Part shown: positions 31,732-51,811 of the stretch, piece after piece
Layout: each line of letters opens with the position of its first letter
How positions within the stretch are numbered: position 1 is the stretch's first letter
Assembly (NCBI RefSeq): GCF_000784355.1
Contig: NZ_KN360930.1
Span: 62,001 to 126,000, forward strand
From: Methanolacinia paynteri
GTDB lineage: Archaea > Halobacteriota > Methanomicrobia > Methanomicrobiales > Methanomicrobiaceae
Length of the DNA: 64,000 nt
Direction of reading: 5' to 3'
Translations under genes and position numbers: made by a program
The notes under the pieces: model-generated
Told to the model about the DNA's origin: nothing
The model's input: only the letters and a program-made list of their open reading frames with translations
Databases searched by the model: none

Positions 31732-31754
31732 TAACCCAAAAGAAAAGATGAAAC

Positions 31755-31825
31755 CCAAAAATGGACTTGGCGGGATTTGACCCCGCGGCCTCTACGTTGC
31801 GAACGTAGCGATCTCCCCCTGATCT
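31755..31825 (-). pseudogene. 3' fragment of tRNA-Ala(CGC): left attachment repeat of the island
   Basis: This 71-bp sequence is identical, except for one base (C at 31781 against A at 40968), to 40942-41012, which covers the 3' flank and most of the intact tRNA-Ala gene. It has the T arm, anticodon arm with CGC and D arm but lacks the 5' acceptor strand, so it cannot make a tRNA. Being the same strand as the intact gene and carrying its 3' end, it is what integration into the tRNA leaves at the distal end of an element. Confidence 0.9.
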
Positions 31826-32059
31826 GCGAGGAAAACAAAATTGAGGAGAAATGTTTAATGATTGTAGGCAAAGTGGTGCGATTGAGACAGACCGGTATCC
31901 GTGCTCAGAGCACACTCATCCATTCGTAACCACCCCGACCAGACTCTGTTACAGGTTCGGGGACCTAAGTCGAAATTGGTCTAACCTGTCTATAACCGCG
32001 TAACAATTCTCCCAGAAGCAAAAAAGATATGGGTCAGCTATCCTCCTTGGTTTTCATGC
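31826..32059. other. Left edge of island, no gene
   Basis: Between the attachment repeat and the transposase remnant. It contains an inverted pair around CCCCGACC / GGTTCGGGG (about 31935-31962) but no ORF of note. Confidence 0.4.
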
Positions 32060-32485
32060 TCATCTATGAGCCGAAGGCTCAGCGCGCTCTGTTGAATTCC
32101 TCCCCGACGAAACAATGATGACTGCTTGACCTGCTTTCGTCAGGTCGTGGAGGATCGCCGTACTCTTGATCTCCTTGACTTGGAAACTGTATTTTCTCGT
32201 CTTCAATTCCTCTCGGAATCTCCCTTTGAGCACTGAAAAGGCTGTTTCGACTTTGTTTCGTTCCCAGCACTGCAACGGATTGAAGTCTGTGTACATCTTC
32301 TGTAAATGGGTCCTGGATCGGATCCCCCCTTGCCAAGTTCTGACTGGAATCACCGAATCTGCATCGAGGAGGACCTCAGCCCTGCGTGACTCTTCTTTAC
32401 GGTTATTACGTTTATCAATCCGTCTCTTGTTTCTCTTATCGGTTTCCTTTTTGGTCATTTTATCGAATCTCCGTACGGAAACCAC
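32060..32485 (-). pseudogene. Transposase remnant (IS5/IS4-like DDE, C-terminal part)
   Basis: The 141-codon frame (starting at a GTG) contains WERNKVETAFSVLKGRFREE followed by LKTRKYSFQVKEIKSTAILH. This is the usual end of IS5/IS4-type DDE transposases: the catalytic Glu with the E-x-x-F-x-x-LK helix, then an R-x-x-x-x-x-x-Q-x-x-E-x-x helix. The N-terminal catalytic part is missing, and upstream frames have stop codons. It is therefore a truncated copy. It may have helped build the island; no terminal inverted repeats could be identified. Confidence 0.7.
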
Positions 32486-32610
32486 TCTTCATTACAATTT
32501 TCTGTCACGAACCATTCCGAAGCCAAGTTGAAGACGAAGACTGAAGAACGGTTCGTCAATGCTGTCAGAAGAACTGCTTAATGCAACACATCAGTCGAAT
32601 GCTCGATATG

Positions 32611-32620
32611 ATTAAATATT
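32611..32620 (+). promoter_or_regulatory. Candidate TATA box of the peptide/NIF3-like unit
   Basis: ATTAAATATT is centred about 26 bases before the ATG at 32641, so transcription would start at or next to that codon and give a leaderless mRNA. The core GATTAAATA also occurs before the radical-SAM operon. Confidence 0.5.
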
Positions 32621-32640: not shown

Positions 32641-32787
32641 ATGTGCAATGAGAAATATGATGAAAAATGCGGCACATCTGAAGAGAAAGAGGATGGCGCC
32701 TTTGATCCGATTTTAGGAGAGATAGTCGCTGATGATGTTTTCTCCTTTACGTTGCTTTCATGTCATTGTTCGAAGTGTGGCGACTAA
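32641..32787 (+). CDS. Small Cys-containing peptide, candidate RiPP precursor
   Basis: A 48-aa ORF with a Glu/Asp/Lys-rich N-terminal half and the C-terminal end LLSCHCSKCGD. Cys lie at 2, 10, 41, 43 and 46. Acidic leader followed by a short Cys-rich end is a common layout for substrates of radical-SAM peptide maturases, several of which are encoded in the facing operon. The in-frame ORF can be extended to ATG 32581 (68 aa), but the TATA box at 32611-32620 favours 32641 as a leaderless start. It ends 12 nt before the NIF3-like gene. No homologue is recognised; the assignment is an inference. Confidence 0.45.
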   Translation: MCNEKYDEKCGTSEEKEDGAFDPILGEIVADDVFSFTLLSCHCSKCGD

Positions 32788-32799
32788 TGAGCTACACTG

Positions 32800-33660
32800 A
32801 TGAATTTAGCTGAGATAAGCACGCTGTTGCTTCACGGTGAGTCTGGGCATAGGAACAGTTTTACTGATGGTTATTTTTTTGATTCTGGAATATTGTATGG
32901 AAACTTGGATGCTGAAATTAGCAGAATAATTTGTGGAATAGATGTTGGAGCTGAAGAGATTATAACCACAGATAGATTCAAGACAAACGCATGTTCTGAC
33001 TTATTACTTTCACACCATCCAGAGGGTAGATTTGCACGAGGCATTCTAAACGTGATTGATTGTCAACGGACTTTGCTGTTGTCTATGGGCCTGCAACAAA
33101 AAAAAATAGACGCGGTAATTGACAAATTAAAAACGGAACTGATAGCGCATTACAATAGTTGTAATCTTTTGAGAATAGAGTCTTTTTGTGAAATGCTAGA
33201 AACGCAAATGATGTGTCTGCATACTCCTGCTGATACTCTTGCAAAGGAATACCTTGATTCGTTGTTCGAAAATCATGATTTGACACTTGGAAGCATCATC
33301 AGCAGGATAAACTTGATTCCTGAGTGTAAAATCTCAGAAAAGTTCTGTGGTACAAAATCAGAAATATTATTCGGAAGTGGAGATGACAAGGCTGGAAAAA
33401 TATTTTTCATGGTCACTGGCGGAACATCACTACCAAACGAACTATATGAAAATCTATCGGATTCTGGGGTAGAGACTATTGCGGCCCAATATTTCTCAAA
33501 TAGTGATATAGAAACCGCAAAGAAATGTGGTATTAATGTTATATCTCTGGATCATATTGCAATTGACTCCCTGGGTATGAATCTAGCCTTGGATGCCGTT
33601 AGAAGAAAGGGAATCCCAATAATTCCAATTTCTGGTTTTATTTCAGTAGATAGAACCTAA
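32800..33660 (+). CDS. NIF3/DUF34-family protein
   Basis: A 286-aa protein with features of the NIF3 (DUF34) metal-binding family. It has an N-terminal acidic region, the motif DLLLSHHPEGR (His pair, about residues 67-77), an MCLHTPADTLAKEYLDSLF segment, and a C-terminal SGVETIAAQYFSNSDIETAKK then GINVISLDHIAIDSLGMNLA. In NIF3 proteins the His residues and a late Asp/Glu bind two metals; the last HxxxE-type motif appears as DHIAIDS here. Biochemical function of the family is poorly known. Its stop overlaps that of the convergent radical-SAM gene by three bases, so the two units share the same insertion. Confidence 0.7.
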   Translation: MNLAEISTLLLHGESGHRNSFTDGYFFDSGILYGNLDAEISRIICGIDVGAEEIITTDRFKTNACSDLLLSHHPEGRFARGILNVIDCQRTLLLSMGLQQKKIDAVIDKLKTELIAHYNSCNLLRIESFCEMLETQMMCLHTPADTLAKEYLDSLFENHDLTLGSIISRINLIPECKISEKFCGTKSEILFGSGDDKAGKIFFMVTGGTSLPNELYENLSDSGVETIAAQYFSNSDIETAKKCGINVISLDHIAIDSLGMNLALDAVRRKGIPIIPISGFISVDRT

Positions 33661-34910
33661 ACCACATCAAGTATCTTACAAGATAATGTGTCTGGCTCTG
33701 AGATAGCTCCAGTTTTTAGATAGGCACGACTCCTACACCCTCCTCCACAGATTTTTATAAATTTGCAACTTTTTTCTTTACATAAGATATTTTGTCGTAT
33801 ATCGTTCAACTCATCGCTGTCCCATATGTCAGATATACTTTCATTGCATATATTTCCCAACGAAAACAAATTCGACTGGGCTGAAGATAAGGTCGGACAC
33901 AGACATATCTCTCCATCCGACTTAATAAAAATCATACTGGTCGCCACGCCACATAGTGGATACTTAGAATTATTGGGTTTTAAACCATATCTGATGATGT
34001 TATCTTTATATATCTTTGCAATTTTTTCATCTGAAATATGAAAAACATTTTTCATTGCCCTCCCCTGATTGAGTACAGGTGCGACCCTTACGCCTACGTC
34101 CAGCTCCTTCCCGATTTTGTAAATATCTTCAATCTTTTCGACATTTTGGGGAGTTAGTGTGGTATTTATCACGACGGGGATCCTACTTTGACGCAACAAT
34201 TTTATTCCATTCATGGTTTTGTCAAATGACCCCTCTACTCCCCTAAAACAATCATGACTGTGTGGTTCAGAATCATCTAGACTGACATATACTCTTTCCA
34301 CATTGCCGAGTTTTTTTATTCGCTCGACAATTGGCTTTGTAATCAGAGTTCCATTTGTAAAGATAGAAGTTAAAAACAACTTATCTCTTAAAATCGCCAT
34401 TATCTCCAAAAAATTTGGATGTAACATCGGTTCTCCACCAGTCACATCTAATCTATATGATCCCATAGCAAGTGCTTCGGCCACAATATCTTTTATTCCA
34501 TCCAAAGAGATGTGACGGACTTTTGCCGATCCATTATAGCAATGCTTACACAAGAGATTGCACGAACTTGTTATCTCAACGAAAACACGCCTCAAATATA
34601 AACCACTCTTTTGATTTCGGACAGAGATTTTTCCGGTTTGGGATACATCATGTGTAAAAAAATTAGATTCAATTAGTTGTCGCTCTGCCTGTTTAATTTT
34701 CGACAGTTCAAACACCTTGCTCTCATAATCCAGCTTGATTCCCTTAGAACATGATTGCGATTGGATGAAAGTGTACATGTCTTGGTTGATATGTCTTCTC
34801 AGTGACATACTAAATGAATATATGAATGGATTTTTCCCACCAACAACCAAAACGTCCCCATTCGGGTACAGATTATCCTCCGAATCATTTAGCGAGTTCA
34901 CCGATTGCAT
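33657..34910 (-). CDS. Radical SAM/SPASM protein (peptide-maturase type)
   Basis: A 417-aa protein. After an N-terminal domain of about 110 residues comes EITSSCNLLCKHCYNGSAKV with the 4Fe-4S motif C117-x3-C121-x2-C124, then a TGGEPMLHP SAM-binding motif and a TNGTL strand. The C-terminal SPASM domain has CGVATSMIFIKSDGEICLCP, SLGNI and a closing CKFIKICGGGCRSRAYL then C set, which holds auxiliary Fe-S clusters. SPASM enzymes of this form modify ribosomal peptides or enzyme side chains. ATG 34910 was chosen because GGAGG lies 9 nt before it; the ATG at 34934 is upstream of that site. It overlaps the gene upstream by 26 bases. Confidence 0.88.
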   Translation of the reverse strand: MQSVNSLNDSEDNLYPNGDVLVVGGKNPFIYSFSMSLRRHINQDMYTFIQSQSCSKGIKLDYESKVFELSKIKQAERQLIESNFFTHDVSQTGKISVRNQKSGLYLRRVFVEITSSCNLLCKHCYNGSAKVRHISLDGIKDIVAEALAMGSYRLDVTGGEPMLHPNFLEIMAILRDKLFLTSIFTNGTLITKPIVERIKKLGNVERVYVSLDDSEPHSHDCFRGVEGSFDKTMNGIKLLRQSRIPVVINTTLTPQNVEKIEDIYKIGKELDVGVRVAPVLNQGRAMKNVFHISDEKIAKIYKDNIIRYGLKPNNSKYPLCGVATSMIFIKSDGEICLCPTLSSAQSNLFSLGNICNESISDIWDSDELNDIRQNILCKEKSCKFIKICGGGCRSRAYLKTGAISEPDTLSCKILDVV

Positions 34911-35808
34911 CGGAAACAACCTCCATATAGTCAAAATACTCCTTGTGGCGGATATTCCTTCTCATTATACTGTGCAACTTCTCTACTAATTCATCAACAT
35001 TAACAGATAGTTTCGGATACGTACTAATTGACGAGATTTTAGTTCTGCTTGAGTCATCTCTGTATGGTACCAAATCCCCATTACACATAATCCATGGCAT
35101 TATCTTAGGGAAAATCTGACTTTCTGATATGGAATATTTTTTATTGTTTACAAAATCGGGCACTGACATAATCCTATAATTAGATTCTTTAGAGAGACGC
35201 CTCACTATATCAATTTGACTCAAAACTTCTTCGTCACTCAACCATAAATTTCTACACGTTTTGCCCATTCCAACTTTGGAAATGTGAGAGAATTTGACTG
35301 ATTGTGGGGAAAGATCCAAAAAGTTTTGTATGATTTCATCTTCGAATTGAAAACTTTGTGGAACGATGGTGCATTGAACATTTACGTTACAGTTGGCAGA
35401 GATCAACTTTTTAAGGGAAATCTGTGTTTTTTTGAACATATCTTTGCCTCTCAAAGCATTGTGTATCTTTTCAGATCCATCATGTGTTATAAACACTTTG
35501 TCCACCTTTTCCGAGACGAACGATATATGCTTGTCTGTTAGTAGAGTTCCGTTTGTGAATATGTCAACAAGCAAGCCTAGGTCGTGTGCATTTTCGATAA
35601 TCTTGAGTACATCTCCCCTCATGAAGATTTCCCCTCCAGTAAGCATTAATCGCCTACCATCTTTTGAAAAATTACTGAAAAATTTGTTCAACTTTTTGAA
35701 TGGTACATCTATACCCTCTTTCATAGGACAGCATGCGTAACAAAACGCACACCGTAGATTGCATTTCGATGTTATTTCTACATTGACATTTTCGATCGAA
35801 ATGGTCAG
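34885..35808 (-). CDS. Radical SAM protein starting at a non-AUG codon (CTG)
   Basis: Read from the first ATG (35724) the protein would lack its iron-sulfur motif. The open frame continues upstream through SKCNLRCAFCYACC (C16-x3-C20-x2-C23) to a TAG at 35812-35814, with no ATG, GTG or TTG in between. A CTG at 35806-35808 lies 7-8 nt after GGAGGG, so translation most likely starts there, giving 307 aa. TGGEIFMRGD and FTNGTLL are the SAM-binding and strand motifs. The C-terminus has no complete SPASM Cys set. The preceding gene is in the same frame, separated by only that TAG and one codon, so read-through or a mutated fusion cannot be excluded. Confidence 0.75.
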   Translation of the reverse strand: MTISIENVNVEITSKCNLRCAFCYACCPMKEGIDVPFKKLNKFFSNFSKDGRRLMLTGGEIFMRGDVLKIIENAHDLGLLVDIFTNGTLLTDKHISFVSEKVDKVFITHDGSEKIHNALRGKDMFKKTQISLKKLISANCNVNVQCTIVPQSFQFEDEIIQNFLDLSPQSVKFSHISKVGMGKTCRNLWLSDEEVLSQIDIVRRLSKESNYRIMSVPDFVNNKKYSISESQIFPKIMPWIMCNGDLVPYRDDSSRTKISSISTYPKLSVNVDELVEKLHSIMRRNIRHKEYFDYMEVVSDAIGELAK

Positions 35809-35811
35809 GAT

Positions 35812-36675
35812 CTATCCCTCCGCATGATTAATAAAATAATCAATCCATGGAAATATGGGATATGGATATGGAATCAGATCCTCCAAAAATATATTTTCAC
35901 AAGTTTTTAAAAAATAATTGTGGCTTTCACTTCCAATATAGCGCACGATTTCATTCAAAATACCATCATCCGAAAATGACCCCATTTTGTATTTTCCGTC
36001 GATTTTTGAACAGAATGGAAAAATATCACCAGAATCAGAAAAAACCATACATCTGGGCACATTGCTTTTCTTTGAGTGACATGTGCAAGGGTCTGTTACA
36101 TAGGCATTACATGGATGTTTTCTGATAAAATCAGACGGTAGAATCCCATAATCGACGCCTATTTTTGTATGATTGCTTTTGACAGATATTAAATCACCAT
36201 ACAATTCAGTCAACTGAGACAAAGACATGCCAGTTTTACAATTTATTGAAATGTTTGGTGATATTATAATTTGAGAATTAGTTACATTGTCACCAATAAA
36301 TTTCAGCAAAATGTCTTTCTCTTCATAGTCAACAGACACTTTAAGTGCGGAAACGTGGGAATTAATTTTTTCAAGATCTCCAAGCGCTGATGCGTTTATT
36401 CTTAACAAAGATACCACATTTTTTGGGATTTTAGCTATTTTTTCAATCAAATTGTAGTCGTCCACCGAGCAAACAAAAACAGTACTTGGCATCGAATCGG
36501 CAACTTTGAAAAAAATCTTGATGTTGTCAATATCTGACGATGCGAAATGTAGGGATTTAACACCCATCTGACTAATGCCATCTCTAATAAATTTCGTATT
36601 GAAAACATCAACCATGTTATCTGGTACGATGATTCGTGCATTTTCTTGTTCTGTGAAAATAGACCTATTAATCAT
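35812..36675 (-). CDS. Cluster-less radical-SAM-like protein with SPASM-like Cys region
   Basis: A 287-aa protein in the middle of the operon. It has no N-terminal CxxxCxxC. The C-terminal third has DPCTCHSKKSNVPRC and MVFSDSGDIFPFC followed by a YKMGSF motif, much like the Cys pattern of SPASM or twitch domains that hold auxiliary clusters. The preceding part has regularly spaced hydrophobic strands like a degenerate TIM barrel. It may be a partner or substrate-recruiting subunit for the next protein, which lacks a SPASM domain. It ends in TAG and overlaps the gene upstream by eight bases. Confidence 0.6.
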   Translation of the reverse strand: MINRSIFTEQENARIIVPDNMVDVFNTKFIRDGISQMGVKSLHFASSDIDNIKIFFKVADSMPSTVFVCSVDDYNLIEKIAKIPKNVVSLLRINASALGDLEKINSHVSALKVSVDYEEKDILLKFIGDNVTNSQIIISPNISINCKTGMSLSQLTELYGDLISVKSNHTKIGVDYGILPSDFIRKHPCNAYVTDPCTCHSKKSNVPRCMVFSDSGDIFPFCSKIDGKYKMGSFSDDGILNEIVRYIGSESHNYFLKTCENIFLEDLIPYPYPIFPWIDYFINHAEG

Positions 36676-38107
36676 AGACGCCAGCCCATCTTTTATAGTG
36701 TTCTTCTACCATTTCAGATAAACATATGGCTCCACCACTATCAAGGTATGCATCAAATACATCTAGCAAGAATATTTTAAACGATTCCGTGTAAGACCTT
36801 CTGTTGGAAGCATCTTTCATCTCCAAAATCTTAGCACAGAAAAGTTTCCATAATTCCTGCCTAACTTTTTTGAATTCGAGAAGAATCCTGTTTACATCTT
36901 CGCAAACATACTCCACTTTCTCTTCACTGAGGCTGGCTTTTGAATGTTTATATATTTTTGTTCCCCTATGGGCGTGCATTTCATAAAAAATAGTACCGGC
37001 TCCAGAATGATTTCCTAGTCCCGCAATCCCGAGAAAATCATACAACCTGAGGTTTCGAATGTTCTGTATTCCCTCTTTCAAGTCAGAAATTGTTGACTCA
37101 GGATCTGCGATCAACCACCCGATTTTTACAGAGATTCCATGTTTTTCAAGAAGTTTTAAAGATTTCTCAACATCATTGAAAGTTATGCCTTTTTTTGTTC
37201 TACGAAGAGCTGAATTCGATGGTGAGTCCACTCCTACAAACACTGTTTTGATGCCAATTTTCTTTAACAAGATAACAGTCTCTTCGCATGTCAACGAATC
37301 TGCCCTCGTTTCACCATATAGCTCCAAATCTACCCCCTGTGCATCGAATTGGGCATATATATTTTTGAGTCTGTCGATTCTGCCTTTTGGCGGTCCAATA
37401 AAATCTGAATCCAGAAGCTGGACTCTTTTCACACCGATCAACATAAGTGATTTCATAACGGATGCGAAAACCGCTGGATCTATTGGATTCCAGGCGATTT
37501 TGCATTTTTTTGATGCAGCGCCAATCATACAAAATGAACATTCCATATACCAACAACCTCTGCTGGAGTGCAAAAATGCTAGGTCATTATCTACTTTGGA
37601 TATCATCTTTTTCGGATCCACCAAACTGATTATTTCATCGAGTGCGATTGGATTATGGACGTCCAGATGTCTTTCGCGGTTCGTATCATTTACTGGCTTG
37701 TACTTCAAATCAGATAGGATATCTAATATCATTTTTTCAGAATTTAATGGAATGATATAGTTTAATTCTTCGAACTCTTTCAGACCTTCAATCCCTGCCA
37801 GTAGCCCTCCGATGCCGATTTTCACCATGTCACTAATATCTACTTCATCAAAGAACAAATTCATGTCTTCAAGTCTATGAATTGGATTTATGATGACAAT
37901 GGCTGGATTAAATTTTTCAAATTCGGAATTCAAAAGATCTTTATCTACAGACTCATTGGAAAGATAATCAAAAACTCTAACATCATATCCTTTGAATCTG
38001 ATATATTCAGATAGATATATCAAATCAGAAAGATGGATAGAGTCCTTCACATTTTTGTTACGATAAATAGATTGACTATATGGCAAAACACATGCAACAC
38101 GTGTCAT
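36668..38107 (-). CDS. B12-binding-like radical SAM protein
   Basis: A 479-aa protein. Residues about 1-150 look like a cobalamin-binding Rossmann domain with poorly conserved motif (LSEYIRFKGYDVRVFDY; FNPAIVIINP; a GIGG loop), without a clear DxHxxG. The radical-SAM motif is SRGCWYMECSFCMIG, spaced C185-x4-C190-x2-C193, one residue longer than usual; RGCWW-type motifs of this kind are known from RiPP-cluster B12-radical SAM proteins. VQLLDSDFIGPPKGRIDRL and GETRADSLTCEE follow. B12-radical SAM enzymes typically methylate or rearrange unactivated carbons. The start overlaps the SPL-like gene stop (ATGA) with GGTGGAGG upstream. Confidence 0.82.
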   Translation of the reverse strand: MTRVACVLPYSQSIYRNKNVKDSIHLSDLIYLSEYIRFKGYDVRVFDYLSNESVDKDLLNSEFEKFNPAIVIINPIHRLEDMNLFFDEVDISDMVKIGIGGLLAGIEGLKEFEELNYIIPLNSEKMILDILSDLKYKPVNDTNRERHLDVHNPIALDEIISLVDPKKMISKVDNDLAFLHSSRGCWYMECSFCMIGAASKKCKIAWNPIDPAVFASVMKSLMLIGVKRVQLLDSDFIGPPKGRIDRLKNIYAQFDAQGVDLELYGETRADSLTCEETVILLKKIGIKTVFVGVDSPSNSALRRTKKGITFNDVEKSLKLLEKHGISVKIGWLIADPESTISDLKEGIQNIRNLRLYDFLGIAGLGNHSGAGTIFYEMHAHRGTKIYKHSKASLSEEKVEYVCEDVNRILLEFKKVRQELWKLFCAKILEMKDASNRRSYTESFKIFLLDVFDAYLDSGGAICLSEMVEEHYKRWAGVYD

Positions 38108-38982
38108 GCCTCCACCTCAAAATTTTTTAGATCTGATTCTCCACTGACTTCTAACATTATGCCATGCGCTCTACAAATCTTCAACATTTTGCCGAGTATT
38201 CCTAATCGGTATTCTCTCGAGGCATGAAACATTCTTCCATTCTTATATACATACAATTCCTTATATTTTTCATACAACCCAGGTGAAAAAGAATCGAGAT
38301 ATTCTTTTTCTTTCTCTAGTGCCCCCTCTACGATATCTGCTACACTCGTAACAATAAACTCCGCACCACATCCTTTAACATTTTTAATGAGCTCTTCTAT
38401 TTTTTCAGGATTATCATTTATCAGCGGGAAAATAGGATCTATCCTGACAACAATTCTGAAACCCATGGACGAGAGTCTTCTTACTTGTTCTAACATCTCA
38501 TACACTGGCGCGCCTCCTCCTCGGACTATATATTTTCTTATATTCTCATCGATGGAGACTATCGTTAATTCGATTATTGGATCTACATTTTTTTTTAGTA
38601 ATAGTATGGCCGATTTTGGCAATATCGCCTTCGTTGAAATTGTCACTGGACAATTGTGCTTGTTACATACATTTATTATTCTTTGAGTTATTTTCAAACA
38701 GTCGTTAATGGGTTGAAATGGATCTGCCACGGGGGAGAGATGAACCCTGACTTTTTTATTGAACTTCAACAGGGATTCATCCAAAATTTCCACAATATTT
38801 TCTACAACTGTCAATTCATTTGATTCATTGAATAACAGGAACGCCTTTTTTTCCAAAAAATTATCATTGGCAGGACAAAAAAGACAGCGATGTGTACAAC
38901 CCTGGTAAGGACTTAATAAAACTCTATCGGACATTGGATCTATTGAGGAATGGTCGGTAATTTTTATCCTATTTACCTTCAT
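38104..38982 (-). CDS. Radical SAM protein, SPL/DNA-photolyase-like (COG1533 type)
   Basis: A 292-aa protein with SPYQGCTHRCLFCPANDNF (C29-x3-C33-x2-C36) near the N-terminus and VRHLSP-like VRVHLSPVADPFQPIND, the layout of spore photoproduct lyase-like radical SAM proteins. Later motifs are TISTKAILPKS and SIDENIRKYIVRGGGAPVYE. Such proteins accompany various biosynthetic clusters and need not repair DNA. ATG 38982 was chosen over an upstream ATG at 39012 because it fits the conserved N-terminus; either overlaps the gene upstream. Confidence 0.82.
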   Translation of the reverse strand: MKVNRIKITDHSSIDPMSDRVLLSPYQGCTHRCLFCPANDNFLEKKAFLLFNESNELTVVENIVEILDESLLKFNKKVRVHLSPVADPFQPINDCLKITQRIINVCNKHNCPVTISTKAILPKSAILLLKKNVDPIIELTIVSIDENIRKYIVRGGGAPVYEMLEQVRRLSSMGFRIVVRIDPIFPLINDNPEKIEELIKNVKGCGAEFIVTSVADIVEGALEKEKEYLDSFSPGLYEKYKELYVYKNGRMFHASREYRLGILGKMLKICRAHGIMLEVSGESDLKNFEVEA

Positions 38983-40342
38983 GGTACAACATCTTTTTCC
39001 AATACTCTTCATATGGCAAGTTATCTGGGAAGACTTTTAATATTAATTTTATTGCTTCGACGATTCTTCTTTTCTGATAGATACAGTATGTTTCGGTTCT
39101 GCCCCCACAACTTTTTATATGCAAAAATTTATATTCACAGGGTTTGTCACAGATCCATCTCGCCCAACAACCATCACAACTATCGATGTTTGGATCGGTT
39201 TTTTCCTCCCAAGGATTGAGAACTTGATGGGAGGAATCGCCGTTGAAAAAATGACATGTATAACAATCGCCTTTAACATCAAATGACATGTAACTTTTAC
39301 CAGCCGGGCAGTTGAATGGAACTCCGTCAAAAAAATTATCACCCGCCAGAATCTTTGTCACTGGCTCTGTGATGAGATTTATGTTCATTTTCTTTCCAAG
39401 ATTATCGGAAATGAACTGCGAAACATCGGAGATTTCAGTTTCAATCCTGGCATATAGATCATCAATACATATACCATCTTTGATGGCAACGTCGAAAACA
39501 ATATTTTTTAAGCCTAGTGCCTTGAAATATTCAAGTCTGCCCTTTAAATCAATTGGTAATCCGTATATTGTAGATCGTACAAGAATTCTATGCAGACCTA
39601 TTTTTTTCAGGCGCTCAATACCACGGACAATTTCCTTTGAAGTTGGCCCTCCATCTTTGAAAACTCTGGCAGAATCATTTATGCATGGTTGGCCGTCTAA
39701 GCTTACCATGAAACGTATGTTTCCATATTGACGAACAAACTCTACGAAATCGTCTGTTATAAGTGTTCCATTTGTGAATATATCCACACATATTTTTGAA
39801 AAATTATCAGCGGATTTCTGTCGAAGATAAGATATTGCATACTTTAGTAGATCTATATTCAACATGGGTTCCCCTCCAAAAAACACAACATTGGATTTTT
39901 GATCATCCTTAAGTTGCCCTACGAAGGTATCTATGATATCACAGAGTACGTGGGCACTCATCTCTCGGCTCGTCTTTTTATTATGGGTGTCGCCATCGTC
40001 GGCAAAACAATATTTGCACCTTAAGTTGCAAGAGTTCTGTATGTTGATATTAATTCTAGTTACATTGTCAGAAGTTTTCAATTCTGATTTAGAAAAAAAT
40101 CCGAATTTAATGAGAGACTCTATCTCTTTTTCGATATCTTCGTACATAATGTGTTTTGTTAAACACTCATACGCATAATCTGATATTTTGCATATATTTC
40201 CGTTCTCTTTAACTATAAAAATCTGATTTTCATCGACAGATAGAACTTCCCATAGTGTTTGATCACCATTCATAACATCATTTGGAGTCAGAGAATCAGA
40301 GTAACGTCTTCTGGGATAATTTATTGGGTTAAAATGAACCAT
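38969..40342 (-). CDS. Radical SAM/SPASM maturase, first gene of the island operon
   Basis: A 457-aa protein. Residues 1-95 form an N-terminal domain that could be a peptide-binding (RRE-like) region. NIQNSCNLRCKYCFADDGDT follows with C105-x3-C109-x2-C112, then FFGGEPMLN and TNGTLITDD motifs. The C-terminal SPASM part has FNCPAGKSYMSFDVKGDCYT (C, C), then CDGCWARWICDKPCEY and later C-C, enough Cys for two auxiliary clusters. The pattern is closest to peptide maturases such as the SCIFF/PqqE-like group. It is the promoter-proximal gene; a TATA-like box lies 29-38 nt upstream. Confidence 0.87.
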   Translation of the reverse strand: MVHFNPINYPRRRYSDSLTPNDVMNGDQTLWEVLSVDENQIFIVKENGNICKISDYAYECLTKHIMYEDIEKEIESLIKFGFFSKSELKTSDNVTRININIQNSCNLRCKYCFADDGDTHNKKTSREMSAHVLCDIIDTFVGQLKDDQKSNVVFFGGEPMLNIDLLKYAISYLRQKSADNFSKICVDIFTNGTLITDDFVEFVRQYGNIRFMVSLDGQPCINDSARVFKDGGPTSKEIVRGIERLKKIGLHRILVRSTIYGLPIDLKGRLEYFKALGLKNIVFDVAIKDGICIDDLYARIETEISDVSQFISDNLGKKMNINLITEPVTKILAGDNFFDGVPFNCPAGKSYMSFDVKGDCYTCHFFNGDSSHQVLNPWEEKTDPNIDSCDGCWARWICDKPCEYKFLHIKSCGGRTETYCIYQKRRIVEAIKLILKVFPDNLPYEEYWKKMLYHEGK

Positions 40343-40751
40343 GTGATGTCACTCGAAATTGGAAATTGTACTATTTAATCCTGTGGTTATAGAAAGTGTG
40401 TTGTCTTATCAAGGAATCTCGTGAATGGCGAGACTTGTGAAAACGTCCGGTAATTTAAGGAACCAAACAGAACTCACGTCAGCGAAACGAACTTTTTCGC
40501 GTGTATTTCGTCTATATTTTACTCTCTCTGTCCTTTTGGTGATGTAACGAAGAGTTCGTCCCAAAAAGATAAAAGATCTTTGAACCTTCGATACACCCTG
40601 ATCAGAGCATTTACGCCAGAGATTTCTCCTTTCCAAGCCAGATCATGGGCAAGAATGGAAAAAATGGCGAAACGGCTTTCCATTGGATATCGTCATGTGG
40701 GGAGGGAGTGGGAAGGGGGTGCGCCCCCCCCGGTCACAGGAGATAATAAAC
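40343..40751. other. Promoter-side gap of the radical-SAM operon
   Basis: It contains the operon promoter at its left end. A minus-strand ORF of 54 codons (40519-40683, beginning MESRFAIFSI) has no recognisable family or SD and may be chance or a remnant. Another minus-strand frame (40409-40636) is Arg/Lys-rich and also unsupported. No integrase is seen. Confidence 0.4.
40371..40380 (-). promoter_or_regulatory. Candidate TATA box of the radical-SAM operon
   Basis: On the minus strand this reads GATTAAATAG. Initiation about 25 nt downstream would fall only a few bases before the ATG at 40342, so the mRNA leader is very short. The GATTAAATA core is shared with the promoter at 32611. Confidence 0.5.
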
Positions 40752-40967
40752 GTGGAAAAAGAGAGAAAACCGAAAACAATCGTTATGCATAGGATCCGGA
40801 AGCCGCTCGAAATTTCTATCGACCTTGAAAACTACGAGGATTTGAAAGAAAACTCCCTAAACACGTCCAAATTAGTCGATATGTTGATAATTTGGTTTAG
40901 AGAGTTAACGCCGCACAATTCGGTCTTAATTTTGCAAAAAACCAAAAATGGACTTGGCGGGATTTGA
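40752..40967 (+). CDS. Small ribbon-helix-helix-like protein ending in the tRNA gene
   Basis: A 71-aa ORF from a GTG with AGGAG 9 nt upstream. The segment RKPLEISIDLENYEDLKENS then LNTSKLVDMLIIWF looks like a ribbon-helix-helix DNA-binding fold: a strand of alternating residues, then two helices with an N-x-S turn, as in CcdA-like antitoxins and plasmid regulators. Its last nine codons and stop lie in the 71-bp attachment repeat, overlapping the tRNA-Ala 3' end on the other strand. That overlap fits an element-encoded gene placed at the att site. Function unproven. Confidence 0.5.
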   Translation: MEKERKPKTIVMHRIRKPLEISIDLENYEDLKENSLNTSKLVDMLIIWFRELTPHNSVLILQKTKNGLGGI

Positions 40968-41020
40968 ACCCGCGGCCTCTACGTTGCGAACGTAGCGATC
41001 TCCCCCTGATCTACAAGCCC
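40949..41020 (-). tRNA. tRNA-Ala (anticodon CGC)
   Basis: A 72-nt gene on the minus strand. The acceptor pairs GGGCTTG with CAAGTCC, including a G3-U70 pair, the identity element of tRNA-Ala. The anticodon stem CTACG/CGTAG encloses TTCGCAA, anticodon CGC. The T loop is TTCAAAT, discriminator A, and CCA is not encoded. It is the integration target of the island to its left and lies 27 nt downstream of the tfb stop. Confidence 0.95.
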
Positions 41021-41046: not shown

Positions 41047-42054
41047 TCAGAGAATAATTTCTATATCTAATTTCTCTGCCAGCTCTTTATACCTGTTCCT
41101 AATCGTAACCTCGGTTACGCCTGCAACCTCGGCAACTTCACGCTGTGTACGGCGTTCGCCACCGAGGATCGAGGATATGTAAATTGCGGCCGCTGCGACC
41201 CCTGTTGGTCCTCTGCCGCTTGTAAGCTCCCTTTCTCCCGCTTGGCGGAGGATCTCGACCGCCCTTGACTGAACCTCTCCTTTGAGGTTAAGTCCGGAGC
41301 AGAAGCGCGGAACGTAATCGATCGGGGACGTGGGCAGGAGTTTCAATCCGAGCTCTCTTGAGATGAACCTGTATGTCCTTCCGATCTCTTTCCTCGATAC
41401 ACGGGATACCTCGGCAATCTCGTCGAGTGTTCTCGGGACGCTGCACTGGCGGCAGGCTGCGTAGAGTGCGGCTGCAGCTACTCCTTCGATACTTCTTCCG
41501 CGGATGAGGTTCTTGTCTACCGCATCACGGTATACGACCGCAGCAGTCTCACGGACATTTCTCGGAAGACCGAGAGCCGATGCCATACGGTCGAGTTCGG
41601 AGAGTGCAAATGCAAGGTTTCTCTCGGTAGCGTTCGAGACACGAATCCTTCTCTGCCACTTGCGGAGCCTGTAGAGCTGTGCACGGTTCTTCGAAGAGAT
41701 CGCTCTTCCGTATGAGTCACGGTTTCTCCAGTCGATCATAGTCGAGAGACCCTTGTCGTGGATCGTGAAGGTCATCGGTGCACCGACACGGGAACGCTTC
41801 ATGCGCTGGTCGTGGTCGAATGCACGCCACTCTGGACCCCTGTCTATGAACTCCTCTTCAAGTACGAGACCGCAGTTCTGGCAGGTAAGTTCCGCACGCT
41901 CGTAGTCGTGGATGAGCTGCCTGCTTCCACACTCGGGACAGACCGTCTTTGAGGATTCCTCCTTTTTCTTCTGCTCTTTCTCTACCTGCGATGTACGCTT
42001 TTTAAGAGCCTCTCTCTGGCTCTGAAGTTGTTTAAGTTTCTCTATTTCCTGCAT
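41047..42054 (-). CDS. tfb: Transcription initiation factor TFB
   Basis: Bridges TBP at the promoter and RNA polymerase. The 335-aa protein has a Lys/Glu-rich N-terminal extension of about 35 residues and a zinc ribbon ([24 protein letters not shown], Cys pairs near 39/42 and 58/61). The B-finger/linker with [18 protein letters not shown] follows, then two cyclin-like repeats (about 140-335). [20 protein letters not shown] is the C-terminal HTH for BRE recognition. It is transcribed just behind gar1. Confidence 0.96.
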
Positions 42055-48035: not shown

Positions 48036-48107
48036 GCCGGGGTAGGGTAGTGGTTATCCTCAGGGATTGTGGCTCCCTGGACTCGGGTTCAAATCTCGGC
48101 CCCGGCC
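48036..48107 (+). tRNA. tRNA-His (anticodon GTG)
   Basis: A 72-nt gene. The acceptor GCCGGGG pairs with CCCCGGC, the anticodon stem AGGGA/TCCCT encloses TTGTGGC (anticodon GTG), and the T arm is TCGGG-TTCAAAT-CTCGG with two wobble pairs. The discriminator base is C, as expected of tRNA-His. CCA is not encoded; a T-run follows. An AT-rich accessory block begins about 110 nt downstream. Confidence 0.95.
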
Positions 48108-48216
48108 TTTTTGATTATTTTATTTTGCAAGAAGAACTGCTTTTTTTGGATTTTTCATTAAAATTTGTAATTTTAATAGATCACATTATCAACTAGATCA
48201 GTTTAAAAAATAATTT

Positions 48217-49200
48217 ATGAAAGTCAATTATAGACGTTTTGATGATAAAGGGCAGGATATTAGTGAAGTAGATCATCTTGACATCAAATATTCTGATTTA
48301 ATTCATGCGTGTATTACCATTGGCGAACCATCATATGAAGCAGCTAGAAATAAATTCCTCGAAATACCCGAATTTGGATATCACAAAATTTTTGCGATTT
48401 TAACATCATTAGATTGCCAAAATGATGAAATAATTCAAAACCCGGCCTGTAATAATTTAGAACAAAGTGAAAAAGTCGTACTATCCTTTTGGACAGGTAT
48501 GATCTTTGCAAAAATTGTGGCAGAAAGAATTCTTGACGTATCTTGGCCCACACATGTGCGAATGATGCAAAAAGAATGTCCTGAAGACATTGTATTCAAT
48601 TCTTCCGATTCTAACTTATTACCAGATTTTATTGGAAAGGATAATAATACTGATAATTGGCATATTATTGAAGCCAAAGGTCTTCGAAATAATCCCTTAA
48701 AAGAAAAAAGAAAAAAATATAAAGAACAGACTGAGTCCATAGCAACAATAAAAGGTAAAAAGCCAAAAACACGAAACTACTGTATAACCCATCTTCAATC
48801 CGCTATTGAAATTGAACTGGTAGATCCTAAAAAAGATCCTGAAGTCATATTAAAGCTAGATTTTGAGCTTAAAAATTTACAGAATTATTACTATAAAAAT
48901 ATAATAACCTTCCTTAAAAAAAATGAAAAAAATAATAGCTCCGATCAAAAATACCCGTTCATATACAAGAAGATTCCATGTCTTTGTTATATTAAAAAAG
49001 AGTGCTTCATCGGAATTGTAAAAGGAATATATGAGCAGGTTCTAAGTGAAAAAGTCGTAAAAAATTTACAGATAGAAGATATTCAAATTTTAAAAAATGA
49101 ACTTGCCGATCATTTTCAACTAAATTCAAAAGAACAAGAAAAAGATTATGAACCAGATATTTCCCTAGGATCTGATGGAATTTTCGTTGTAATTAAATAA
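48217..49200 (+). CDS. Unrecognised AT-rich protein with PD-(D/E)XK nuclease-like motif
   Basis: A 327-aa protein, Lys/Asn/Ile-rich and much more AT-rich than core genes. Near residues 133-155 it reads LLPDFIGKDNNTDNWHIIEAKG: PD, then after about 11 residues E-A-K, the core of a PD-(D/E)XK nuclease fold. No methylase or specificity protein is recognised nearby. It is the first gene of an accessory module behind tRNA-His and could be a defence or mobile-element nuclease. The motif is visible; the function is inference. Confidence 0.5.
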   Translation: MKVNYRRFDDKGQDISEVDHLDIKYSDLIHACITIGEPSYEAARNKFLEIPEFGYHKIFAILTSLDCQNDEIIQNPACNNLEQSEKVVLSFWTGMIFAKIVAERILDVSWPTHVRMMQKECPEDIVFNSSDSNLLPDFIGKDNNTDNWHIIEAKGLRNNPLKEKRKKYKEQTESIATIKGKKPKTRNYCITHLQSAIEIELVDPKKDPEVILKLDFELKNLQNYYYKNIITFLKKNEKNNSSDQKYPFIYKKIPCLCYIKKECFIGIVKGIYEQVLSEKVVKNLQIEDIQILKNELADHFQLNSKEQEKDYEPDISLGSDGIFVVIK

Positions 49201-49231
49201 TTAATAGATGCTAAAAAAATACGAAATTCCA

Positions 49232-49588
49232 TTATTTTTTCTTTAATTCTATCCGATTGTGCTGATTTTTGTTTCTTCTATATTCAACCATTTTTAAATG
49301 AAACATAATTGAGGCTATCATAGATGCATACTTTGGACTATGTAGAGAAGATATCGTTTGATACTTCTGGATATATTCTCCAAGGCCACCCTCAATAGGA
49401 TCATCCCATTTTGCACCTAAGGGGTACCAATCAGATGTTTTAAAGAAATTATCACGAATATCATCAATTAGGATTTTTGGAAATGCTAGCGGAGTCGATC
49501 CCCAATCGACGTAATAATGCTGTTCAGTCAGTCTTACATAAATCTGAGATCCGTTTCCACTTAGTGGATGACAGATGAAGGATTCCAT
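49232..49588 (-). CDS. Unrecognised small protein of the AT-rich module
   Basis: A 118-aa protein on the strand opposite its neighbours. Aromatic-rich segments include QHYYVDWGSTPLAFPKILID and DWYPLGAKWDDPIEGGLGEY. There is no signal peptide or membrane segment. The family is unknown to me. It lies between the nuclease-like gene and a two-gene unit, in sequence of about 33% GC by eye. Confidence 0.55.
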   Translation of the reverse strand: MESFICHPLSGNGSQIYVRLTEQHYYVDWGSTPLAFPKILIDDIRDNFFKTSDWYPLGAKWDDPIEGGLGEYIQKYQTISSLHSPKYASMIASIMFHLKMVEYRRNKNQHNRIELKKK

Positions 49589-49689
49589 AATAAAATGGAA
49601 GAGCCTTTTGAATAGATAATAATTTGTGATAATTCATATTGTAGAATTCTCAAAAGATATATTAGATTATAAAATAAGTCAATTAAATA

Positions 49690-50697
49690 ATGCAAAGTGA
49701 TGATTTTGAATTATACTTATCAAAAGACATCGTCCAAGGAGAAAAAGTTCCTTTTTATATTTTATGGGATTGTAATGATGTTTCAAAAATTGAATTAGAT
49801 ATTGATGGTTTTACTGAAATTAGTGAATTTCATAATGTACGTGATGGTTTTAATTCTGAAAGTAATAAATTAGATATTACTGATTTAAAGACAAAAAATT
49901 ATTTAGGAGGAATATTGAATACAGTATCTTCTGAAGATCCCTTTCAACCTGCAAATTTAAGAGTTCATTTAGTAAAATCTGACGGTTCTTCTATTATAAA
50001 TGAAGAAAAACGCATATTATATTCAACTATTTTAGAGATATCAAAAATTCCGGAAATAATACATATACCATTTAATGAAAAACCGATAAATATCCAATTA
50101 AAAGGTTCAACAACTGTATTTATAGATATTAATACTGAAGAAGGAAGTGAAGTTAAATTTGAATTACCAAAAGATATTCAAAATGCAATTGAAAAATTTA
50201 TTTTTTCTTTTATGGAAGGGTTAGAAAAATTAAAAGAATCATATAGTGAATATAGTAAATTTATTGATGTTTTATTAGATGTAATGAAAAAATCAGACAG
50301 AGTGTCTGAAAGACAATTTATAGATTATGCTGAGAACGAATTTGAATCCTTTTCTCCAACAGAAGAATTTATAGAAGCATTTTCTTTAGTTATAGATAAT
50401 GCATTAAGTAATAGTGCAAGCTTGAAGGATTTGTATTTTAGACCTTTGATAGAATATTTTGAAGCATCCGCTACAGATAAAGGATTTTTAAAATCTCCGT
50501 TTTTAGGTATAAATTTGCATAAGGGTCGTTTCAAGCTTAAAGGTAGAATTACTTATGAAAATATTCTTGAAAAAGAAGGAATCATAAAAAAGAATCATAA
50601 TTATGCAGTCCCTTTTGAGACTATTATTGAATGTTCAAATGAAGGGATGGTTAGCTTAAAGGATTTAATTGATATTCAGAGGATTGAAGATGGTTAA
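49690..50697 (+). CDS. Unrecognised protein, first of a coupled pair
   Basis: A 335-aa protein that I do not recognise. The first 110 residues appear beta-rich (FELYLSKDIVQGEKVPFYIL), the middle forms amphipathic helices (about 160-250), and the end has short strands. No membrane segment or catalytic motif stands out. It overlaps the next gene by eight bases, so the two are translationally coupled and may act together. Confidence 0.6.
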   Translation: MQSDDFELYLSKDIVQGEKVPFYILWDCNDVSKIELDIDGFTEISEFHNVRDGFNSESNKLDITDLKTKNYLGGILNTVSSEDPFQPANLRVHLVKSDGSSIINEEKRILYSTILEISKIPEIIHIPFNEKPINIQLKGSTTVFIDINTEEGSEVKFELPKDIQNAIEKFIFSFMEGLEKLKESYSEYSKFIDVLLDVMKKSDRVSERQFIDYAENEFESFSPTEEFIEAFSLVIDNALSNSASLKDLYFRPLIEYFEASATDKGFLKSPFLGINLHKGRFKLKGRITYENILEKEGIIKKNHNYAVPFETIIECSNEGMVSLKDLIDIQRIEDG

Positions 50698-51625
50698 TTT
50701 AAAGGATACAAAAGAACTTCTTGAAATTGCAAAGGAGATTTCAGATTGGCTAAAAGGAGAGAAATATGATTCACTAGAGATCAATTGTATGAGCAATATC
50801 GGAACTTATTCTACGACAGTCAATGTTAACAGTGTCTTTTCAAAATGGGCTAATAAGAGTTATCCTGGAGAAAAAAAATTTAGTTCTAACGAAATATATG
50901 ATATAAAAGCATTCAGTTTAAAACCTATTCCTGGTAAAATTGATGATGCAGTTTCACGGGAAAATGGAATAATCACTTTACATTTAAATAAGTTATTAAA
51001 TTATGATTTATTTCGTATAGAAGTCCATGTAAAAATGGACCAAGATTTTTTAGATAGTTTAGTAAGAAAGAGATCTTCGCCAGAACCATTGCAGGATGCT
51101 ACAAAATATCATTTGTCCGCTCAGTTAAAAGATCCTGAAAGTTTAATCAGTGGGTTTTCAGATTTAGAAATTGATGAATATCCTGTAACTGCGGATGTTC
51201 AAATCCAGAATTGCATTAATACAAATATTGCCCCATATTTGAATGATTTAGCTAAAGTTGAAGCACAAATGTTGGCAGAGGAAGATCCTCATAGTGTTCA
51301 AAAAGTTATGAAACTGCATAAAGAAAAGATTCGGTTAAGGAAAAAAGGGGAGAAAACCGATGTATTAGATAAATTAAATGATGTCTCAATGTTTTTACAA
51401 CCTTCTAAATTTCTCAATTATGTGAAGATGGACAATTCTACAGAATTCCGTCTCCACCAGTGTGAATGGGGAAATTTATTCCGAGCTTTAGGAATGATAC
51501 ATTTACCTGAAAAAATGGGAGTAATTACAAGAACGGATTTAACTATCAATAAACCTGCTACATCTGGAGTATTACTCTATGAGAAAAATAAATTTTCAGA
51601 AGAATTAAATGGACTATTTAAGTAA
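50690..51625 (+). CDS. Unrecognised protein, second of a coupled pair
   Basis: A 311-aa protein of unknown family. It has an N-terminal helix (LKDTKELLEIAKEISDWLKG), a strand-rich middle and a charged helix around 200-230. ATG 50690 has AGAGG upstream and overlaps the previous gene; a TTG seven codons earlier is less likely. It is the last intact gene of the AT-rich module, ending just before a transposase remnant. Confidence 0.6.
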   Translation: MVNLKDTKELLEIAKEISDWLKGEKYDSLEINCMSNIGTYSTTVNVNSVFSKWANKSYPGEKKFSSNEIYDIKAFSLKPIPGKIDDAVSRENGIITLHLNKLLNYDLFRIEVHVKMDQDFLDSLVRKRSSPEPLQDATKYHLSAQLKDPESLISGFSDLEIDEYPVTADVQIQNCINTNIAPYLNDLAKVEAQMLAEEDPHSVQKVMKLHKEKIRLRKKGEKTDVLDKLNDVSMFLQPSKFLNYVKMDNSTEFRLHQCEWGNLFRALGMIHLPEKMGVITRTDLTINKPATSGVLLYEKNKFSEELNGLFK

Positions 51626-51639
51626 TCTTTTTCAATACA

Positions 51640-51811
51640 TGATTTCAATCAGAAAAATGGATCCAGAGAGATATGGAAGAAACCATATTTTCAGTGTTAA
51701 AAAAATATGGGAAGAATGCCAGATTGAGAAATATACAATCAAATTGAAGAGATTAAATTTGGAATGCTGGTTCATAATATGGCATTTAAGAACAGAAAGT
51801 TTTCTCCATAG
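51640..51811 (+). pseudogene. Frameshifted C-terminal remnant of an IS5-like transposase
   Basis: One frame reads MEETIFSVLKKYGKNARLRN from 51673. The next frame continues from 51740 as QIEEIKFGMLVHNMAFKNRK to a TAG at 51809-51811. Joined, they match the end of archaeal IS5/IS4-like transposases (E-x-x-F-SVLK, then Q-x-x-E-I-K and VHN). A +1 shift separates the halves and the rest of the gene is gone. A 76-codon frame over the same bases (51609-51839) is therefore not a gene. Confidence 0.7.

Follow-up and report, generated by a model that had tools for sequence, protein, structure and literature searches.

A tRNA-Ala island of Methanolacinia paynteri carrying an operon with five radical-SAM proteins: a candidate RiPP-type biosynthetic pathway

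The closest described counterparts of the locus considered here are the ranthipeptide/SCIFF maturases PapB and CteB, the sactipeptide enzyme SkfB and the heme-type SPASM enzymes AhbD and NirJ, the cobalamin enzymes of the OxsB and GenD1 type, the PA0069/Rv2578c proteins and the NIF3/DUF34 proteins, which include HcgD. A CX4CX2C cluster motif has been described for GenD1, a B12 radical S-adenosylmethionine (SAM) enzyme (PMC4340712). DUF34 proteins have been proposed as metal chaperones and HcgD to deliver metal in FeGP cofactor synthesis (PMC8469502). Relatives of all of these meet in and beside a six-gene operon (g6 to g1, in order of transcription) of the archaeon Methanolacinia paynteri, within the 64,000-nucleotide stretch of DNA that was analysed (the window; contig NZ_KN360930.1 of assembly GCF_000784355.1, positions 62,001 to 126,000). 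Because the searches turned up no comparable set of genes, the operon looks like an undescribed biosynthetic pathway. Little is known of how methanogens make natural products, and five radical-SAM chemistries within one self-contained cassette would give a compact source of new enzymology.

The six genes run on the minus strand from 40342 to 33657 and, by open reading frame (ORF) calls and sequence, form one compact operon. An earlier, sequence-only reading of this DNA had recognised the operon and described its genes as coupled by overlaps; four junctions do overlap (by 44, 4, 8 and 26 nt), but that between g3 and g2 is a 3-nt gap. The same reading's count of five radical-SAM proteins and one cluster-less protein holds. 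In g1, g2, g4, g5 and g6 (5/6) PF04055 scores above the Pfam cut-off (44–92 bits vs 29.5) and the three-cysteine cluster motif is intact, as CX3CX2C in four and as CX4CX2C in g4; g3 lacks the motif. These five PF04055 matches fall inside 6.7 kb, and the whole genome (2.79 Mb, 46 contigs) has 42. All six reading frames are open, with codon use even across the genes. A TATA-like box, TTAAATA (40372–40378, minus strand), lies 36 nt before the g6 ATG; predicted from sequence only, it is consistent with one promoter for the whole operon.

A 9.2-kb island of 37% GC, bounded by two 80-nt direct repeats of a tRNA-Ala gene, carries the operon as cargo. The left, attL-like repeat (31751–31830) is a partial tRNA-Ala duplicate, 95% identical to the right copy at a spacing of 9187 (Rfam tRNA 36.7 bits, model positions 9–63). 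The right repeat (40938–41017) lies within the intact tRNA-Ala(CGC) gene at 40949–41020 (ARAGORN; Rfam 67.7 bits). Island genes have 34–38% GC against 48–54% in flanking genes. In the sister genome (G001) both flanks are collinear at 95–96% identity, the island is absent and the window points 31.05 and 40.94 kb are only ~660 bp apart. The repeats, the low GC and the absence from a collinear sister genome indicate that the operon arrived by insertion at tRNA-Ala(CGC); the island would have been acquired horizontally from an AT-rich donor. Besides the operon it holds only a piece of an IS5 transposase gene and two genes that face the operon, for a Cys peptide and a NIF3/DUF34 protein. The transposase remnant (32060–32485, minus strand, 48% GC) corresponds to the C-terminal part of the IS5 family (NCBIfam NF033579, E = 2.9e-7, profile positions 204–287 of 289). 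It is the sole mobile-element gene, no integrase having been identified inside the island.

The sister genome itself carries a full tRNA-Ala copy and, ~130 bp away, a 35-bp partial copy (locus L038, 1540–1781). This 35-bp remnant is a scar left at this site by a separate insertion. The tRNA-Ala site has been used for insertion more than once, and the island shows it to be a recurrent landing site in the genus.

Two SPASM maturase-like proteins had been claimed for the operon; g6 and g1 appear to be these. The first gene, g6 (38969–40342, minus strand), encodes a protein with CNLRCKYC and GGE motifs that matches SPASM maturases of the PapB/SCIFF type over its full length (NCBIfam PapB 6.6e-44, SCIFF maturase 1.3e-31; CteB structure 5wgg, 1.5e-23), at scores that do not reach the equivalog cut-offs (150.5 of 340 bits for PapB, 110 of 425 for SCIFF). 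The SPASM model of Pfam, PF13186, does not hit g6; a CX2CX5CX3C motif is present alongside the full-length SPASM maturase matches. The pre-core domain of ~87 residues has the same length as in SCIFF maturases, SCIFF profile position 89 aligning with g6 residue 87. Likeness to PapB and CteB extends over core, SPASM part and, approximately, pre-core length. The differences are that no recognition domain or SCIFF-type peptide is detectable and that g6 shares its operon with four further radical-SAM enzymes.

The last gene, g1 (33657–34910, minus strand; 417 aa, CNLLCKHC, GGE; Pfam radical SAM 5e-26), has a SPASM domain recognised by PF13186 (3e-9; 37.3 bits vs a cut-off of 21.5). Its start is favoured at ATG 34910, with GGAGG 9 nt upstream, over TTG 34934. 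The nearest solved structure is SkfB (1e-20). With SkfB, AhbD and NirJ g1 shares core and SPASM domain; it differs in lying far under the equivalog cut-offs and in a gene context unrelated to heme or SKF.

The small Cys peptide and the NIF3-like protein that had been described as facing the operon are real reading frames. The 48-aa Cys-rich peptide (MCNEKYDEKCGTSEEKEDGAFDPILGEIVADDVFSFTLLSCHCSKCGD; 32641–32787, plus strand), the candidate substrate, belongs to no family. It has five cysteines, three of them in the C-terminal SCHCSKCGD. Its codon score of 0.291 per codon is the island maximum (0.108–0.186 for the seven large genes; at most 0.120 for unassigned ORFs of at least 45 codons) and is lowered by the 20 extra codons of a 68-aa form starting at 32581. 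A TATA-like box predicted by consensus (ATTAAATAT; 32611–32619, plus strand) is centred 26 nt before ATG 32641, about the distance expected for a leaderless archaeal transcript. The 48-aa form starting at 32641 appears more likely than the 68-aa form; since this start was picked after inspection, the codon and TATA evidence is support, not proof. Tail-to-tail with g1, whose end it overlaps by 4 nt at its 3' end, lies the gene for the putative metal-binding protein (32800–33660, plus strand). Residues 38–279 match the solved NIF3 structure 3rxy (E = 1.4e-13), HH-PEG, CLHT-AD and H-DSLG motifs are held in common with a relative, and the paired-His and His/Asp metal-ligand motifs are kept. The Pfam DUF34 score is under the cut-off (0.0005; 20.2 vs 23.4 bits); the 3rxy match and the predicted dinuclear metal ligands place the protein among NIF3/DUF34 proteins, HcgD included. 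Its nearest archaeal relatives (30–33% identical) do not adjoin such an operon.

We propose, at somewhat less than even confidence, that the operon encodes a pathway of the type that makes ribosomally synthesised and post-translationally modified peptides (RiPPs), acting on the 48-aa Cys peptide. The six genes would constitute one anaerobic pathway. In it g6 and g1 would cross-link Cys or other residues of the SCHCSKCGD stretch (by thioether or C–C links), g4 would methylate or rearrange carbon using cobalamin, g2 would be the catalytic radical-SAM core complementing g3 as a substrate-holding, SPASM-like domain, g5 may perform a further step of undefined kind, and the NIF3 protein may supply metal to an enzyme or the product. 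All these catalytic roles are read from homology, and the order of the steps is likewise conjectural. That the island is a mobile, undescribed archaeal RiPP-like pathway bringing five distinct radical-SAM enzymes, including a g2/g3-type pair and a CX4CX2C cobalamin-type enzyme, to bear on one short Cys-rich peptide is possible rather than probable. A peptide substrate is suggested by the closest characterised relatives of g6 and g1, which are peptide maturases (PapB/CteB and SkfB). The candidate precursor shares the island with the maturase-like genes; what supports it is codon usage and the placing of its TATA-like box. That the genes serve a single pathway is supported by their arrangement as an operon and their common mobility. 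Six genes and a peptide are small enough for transfer to a heterologous anaerobic host, which makes the prediction directly testable.

Several observations weigh against this proposal: (i) no leader recognition domain was detected in the N-termini of g6 and g1 by sequence profiles, nor in that of g6 by comparison with the PDB; (ii) the NCBIfam scores of the operon proteins all lie far under equivalog cut-offs; (iii) the peptide is encoded on the strand opposite to the operon, and its relatives among 247 genomes amount to one weak, probably chance match (E = 0.005); (iv) no peptidase or exporter is found in the island; (v) fold models of g3 by itself and of g3 together with two relatives are not confident (mean pLDDT, a per-residue confidence score, of 34 and 37); (vi) no second copy of the set was found in the genomes searched, so co-occurrence cannot support one pathway.

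A cobalamin-type radical-SAM protein is encoded by g4 (36668–38107, minus strand; Pfam 2.4e-11). Its cluster motif, CWYMECSFC, has the CX4CX2C spacing. It had earlier been described as a B12-binding-like radical-SAM protein, and it has weak matches to B12-type radical-SAM families (NCBIfam, up to 7e-13). Residues 1–141 have no Pfam B12-binding match; an NCBIfam match to a lipid-biosynthesis B12 family spans residues 36–354. The best solved-structure match is OxsB (2.8e-6), and in the alignment OxsB likewise has four residues between its first two cysteines. With OxsB and GenD1 g4 shares the radical-SAM core and the motif spacing; identity is low, and its first 141 residues match no B12-binding family of Pfam.

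The operon might instead make or remodel a small molecule (nucleoside-like, tetrapyrrole-like or another cofactor), with the peptide incidental or regulatory. In such a scheme the model for g4 would be OxsB and that for g1 AhbD/NirJ or cytosylglucuronate decarboxylase, and the NIF3 protein would deliver metal like HcgD. OxsB is a nucleotide ring-contraction enzyme, the motif of g4 is also described for GenD1 (PMC4340712), the NIF3 protein has a precedent in HcgD (PMC8469502), and g1 has AhbD, a heme b synthase, as its top NCBIfam match (1e-43, 150 of 500 bits) and also matches cytosylglucuronate decarboxylase (1.5e-14). Against this, no ordinary transferases, kinases, ligases or oxidoreductases accompany the set, and g6 is clearly of the peptide-maturase type. 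We regard this alternative as rather unlikely, though a serious competitor to the RiPP-type pathway.

It is improbable that the enzymes modify a host protein, as radical-SAM enzymes do on methyl-coenzyme M reductase (MCR). B12 radical-SAM enzymes act on proteins in methanogens, and g4 weakly matches the MCR glutamine C-methyltransferase family (1.3e-8); a strain-specific foreign island would, however, hardly be required to modify a core protein, and the sister species lives without the island.

The cluster-less protein of the operon, g3 (35812–36675, minus strand; 287 aa), matches no Pfam or NCBIfam family and has no three-Cys motif, which sets it outside the radical-SAM superfamily. Over its C-terminal half it shares homology with the corresponding C-terminal domain of a bacterial radical-SAM family (HPC-AYV...CH...DG...P...PW): in a 7.3-Gb search residues 148–277 match a Mycolicibacterium plasmid protein (tblastn, 2e-5), and comparison with the family gives BLASTP 2e-12 and an hhalign probability of 95.6 over residues 149–283. 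The same family matches the N-terminal core of g2 (34885–35808, minus strand), a radical SAM protein with CNLRCAFC and GGE (Pfam 1.4e-13), no SPASM domain and none of the SPASM cysteines. Because one bacterial family matches g3 C-terminally and g2 N-terminally, the two resemble complementary parts of one architecture, and we infer that they act as a pair. The bacterial proteins (Mycolicibacterium plasmid, Duganella and a contig titled Oceanobacillus sp. HTM 045) are single, whereas the island has two proteins, of which g3 is without the cluster motif.

The bacterial family, with its HPC-AYVCN...GCHR...DG...LPE...PWDQ C-terminal domain, apparently has no family model of its own; its members are 53–62% identical across three unrelated bacteria (L067 9371–10510, L068 9320–10420, L069 9326–10387). 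A candidate assignment of g2 as the antiviral protein viperin was rejected (67 of 180 bits in NCBIfam), the PADLOC matches reflecting the common radical-SAM core.

The g3/g2 junction also bears on whether the operon works at all. The frame of g2 has no ATG ahead of CNLRCAFC, a start at ATG 35724 would remove the cluster motif, and the frame runs upstream to the TAG stop of g3, in the same frame. With GGAGG 8 nt before it, CTG 35808 is the likeliest start. It is quite improbable that the island is only a remnant in decay that lacks a working pathway: the lack of a standard start codon in g2, in frame with g3 across TAG, the fragmentary transposase, the lack of an identified integrase inside and the absence of conservation elsewhere would fit decay, but the six frames are open, the cluster motifs are intact, codon use is even and the CTG of g2 has a properly spaced Shine-Dalgarno sequence. 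Readthrough of TAG, for example as pyrrolysine, into one 596-aa protein can practically be dismissed even though a single TAG alone separates the shared frame, since GGAGG beside CTG suggests a separate g2 start and, with no PylS above cut-off in the genome (the best two at 29 and 27 bits vs 178, usual in ordinary genomes), TAG reads as a stop.

The remaining gene, g5 (38104–39012, minus strand; CTHRCLFC), had been called SPL-like, in keeping with its nearest NCBIfam families, the spore-photolyase-like Rv2578c and PA0069 (E = 5e-25, far under the cut-offs; Pfam 5.8e-12; PHROG 13321, E = 1.4e-32). It is alike to these proteins over nearly its whole length. Its nearest archaeal relatives (31–38% identical) stand alone, outside any such operon: about 20 occur in two families of the phylum, and none of the 12 neighbourhoods examined has the set. 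These ~400-aa stand-alone proteins are widespread in families f10 and f24 (e.g. L040–L053).

The sequence-only reading took the operon for a candidate new pathway and looked to conserved co-occurrence in other archaea for support. The operon is dense and intact, and the family libraries used offer no counterpart, which agrees with the former; the latter fails, no second copy of the set having been found within reach of the searches. No orthologue of g4 was found in 247 genomes of the phylum, 232 of the order and 58 of another class, the weak matches being generic cores; none of g6 in the 232 order genomes, where the best other match is 28% identical; and none of g3 in 295 genomes of the phylum. 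Ordinary BchE-type proteins in G083 and G092 were rejected as g4 orthologues, and a g3 match in G213 as chance, being antisense to an unrelated ORF with an in-frame stop. Relatives of g5, of the NIF3 protein and of the g3 C-terminal domain all lie in unrelated gene contexts, and three archaeal loci with NIF3 relatives show no such cluster in ~17–20 kb of surroundings.

Motif scans of contigs (GTDB, viral) require near-exact 8-residue matches and are blind to relatives under ~60–70% identity. Within that reach a single-query scan of GTDB contigs with g4 found nothing, as did a scan with alignment A1, in which six altered g4 copies were added to loosen the pattern. Alignment A4, in which two invented rows were set beside g3 and a genuine homologue from bacteria, brought up two bacterial relatives of the g3 domain, each a single gene; both alignments served as search aids only. 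Viral contigs gave no match to g1, g3, g4 or the NIF3 protein, and three generic core matches to g6. Support for the absence of an orthologous set is good within the order, moderate within the phylum and, because contig scans miss relatives below that identity, weak beyond it. Family libraries and literature searches likewise returned no described system with this gene set and no characterised pathway whose genes are close homologues of the full set, as the sequence-only reading had supposed; nor, the non-ATG start of g2 aside, were the inactivating mutations it named seen. What that reading overlooked was the island, the duplicated tRNA, the frame relation between g3 and g2 and the shorter form of the peptide.

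At the right edge of the island, a small ORF on the plus strand (40683–40967; MHRIRKPLEISIDLENYEDLKENSLNTSKLVDML...) ends in the right repeat and has no Pfam match; a DNA-binding protein or the mobility genes could have left it behind as a remnant. The sequence of the flanking gene at 41047 looks like that of transcription factor B. Further on, a second AT-rich stretch (48036–51700, GC ~30%) starts beside tRNA-His (48036–48107); no tRNA-His direct repeat was found there, and the stretch holds ORFs at 48217–49200, 49690–50697 and 50669–51625.

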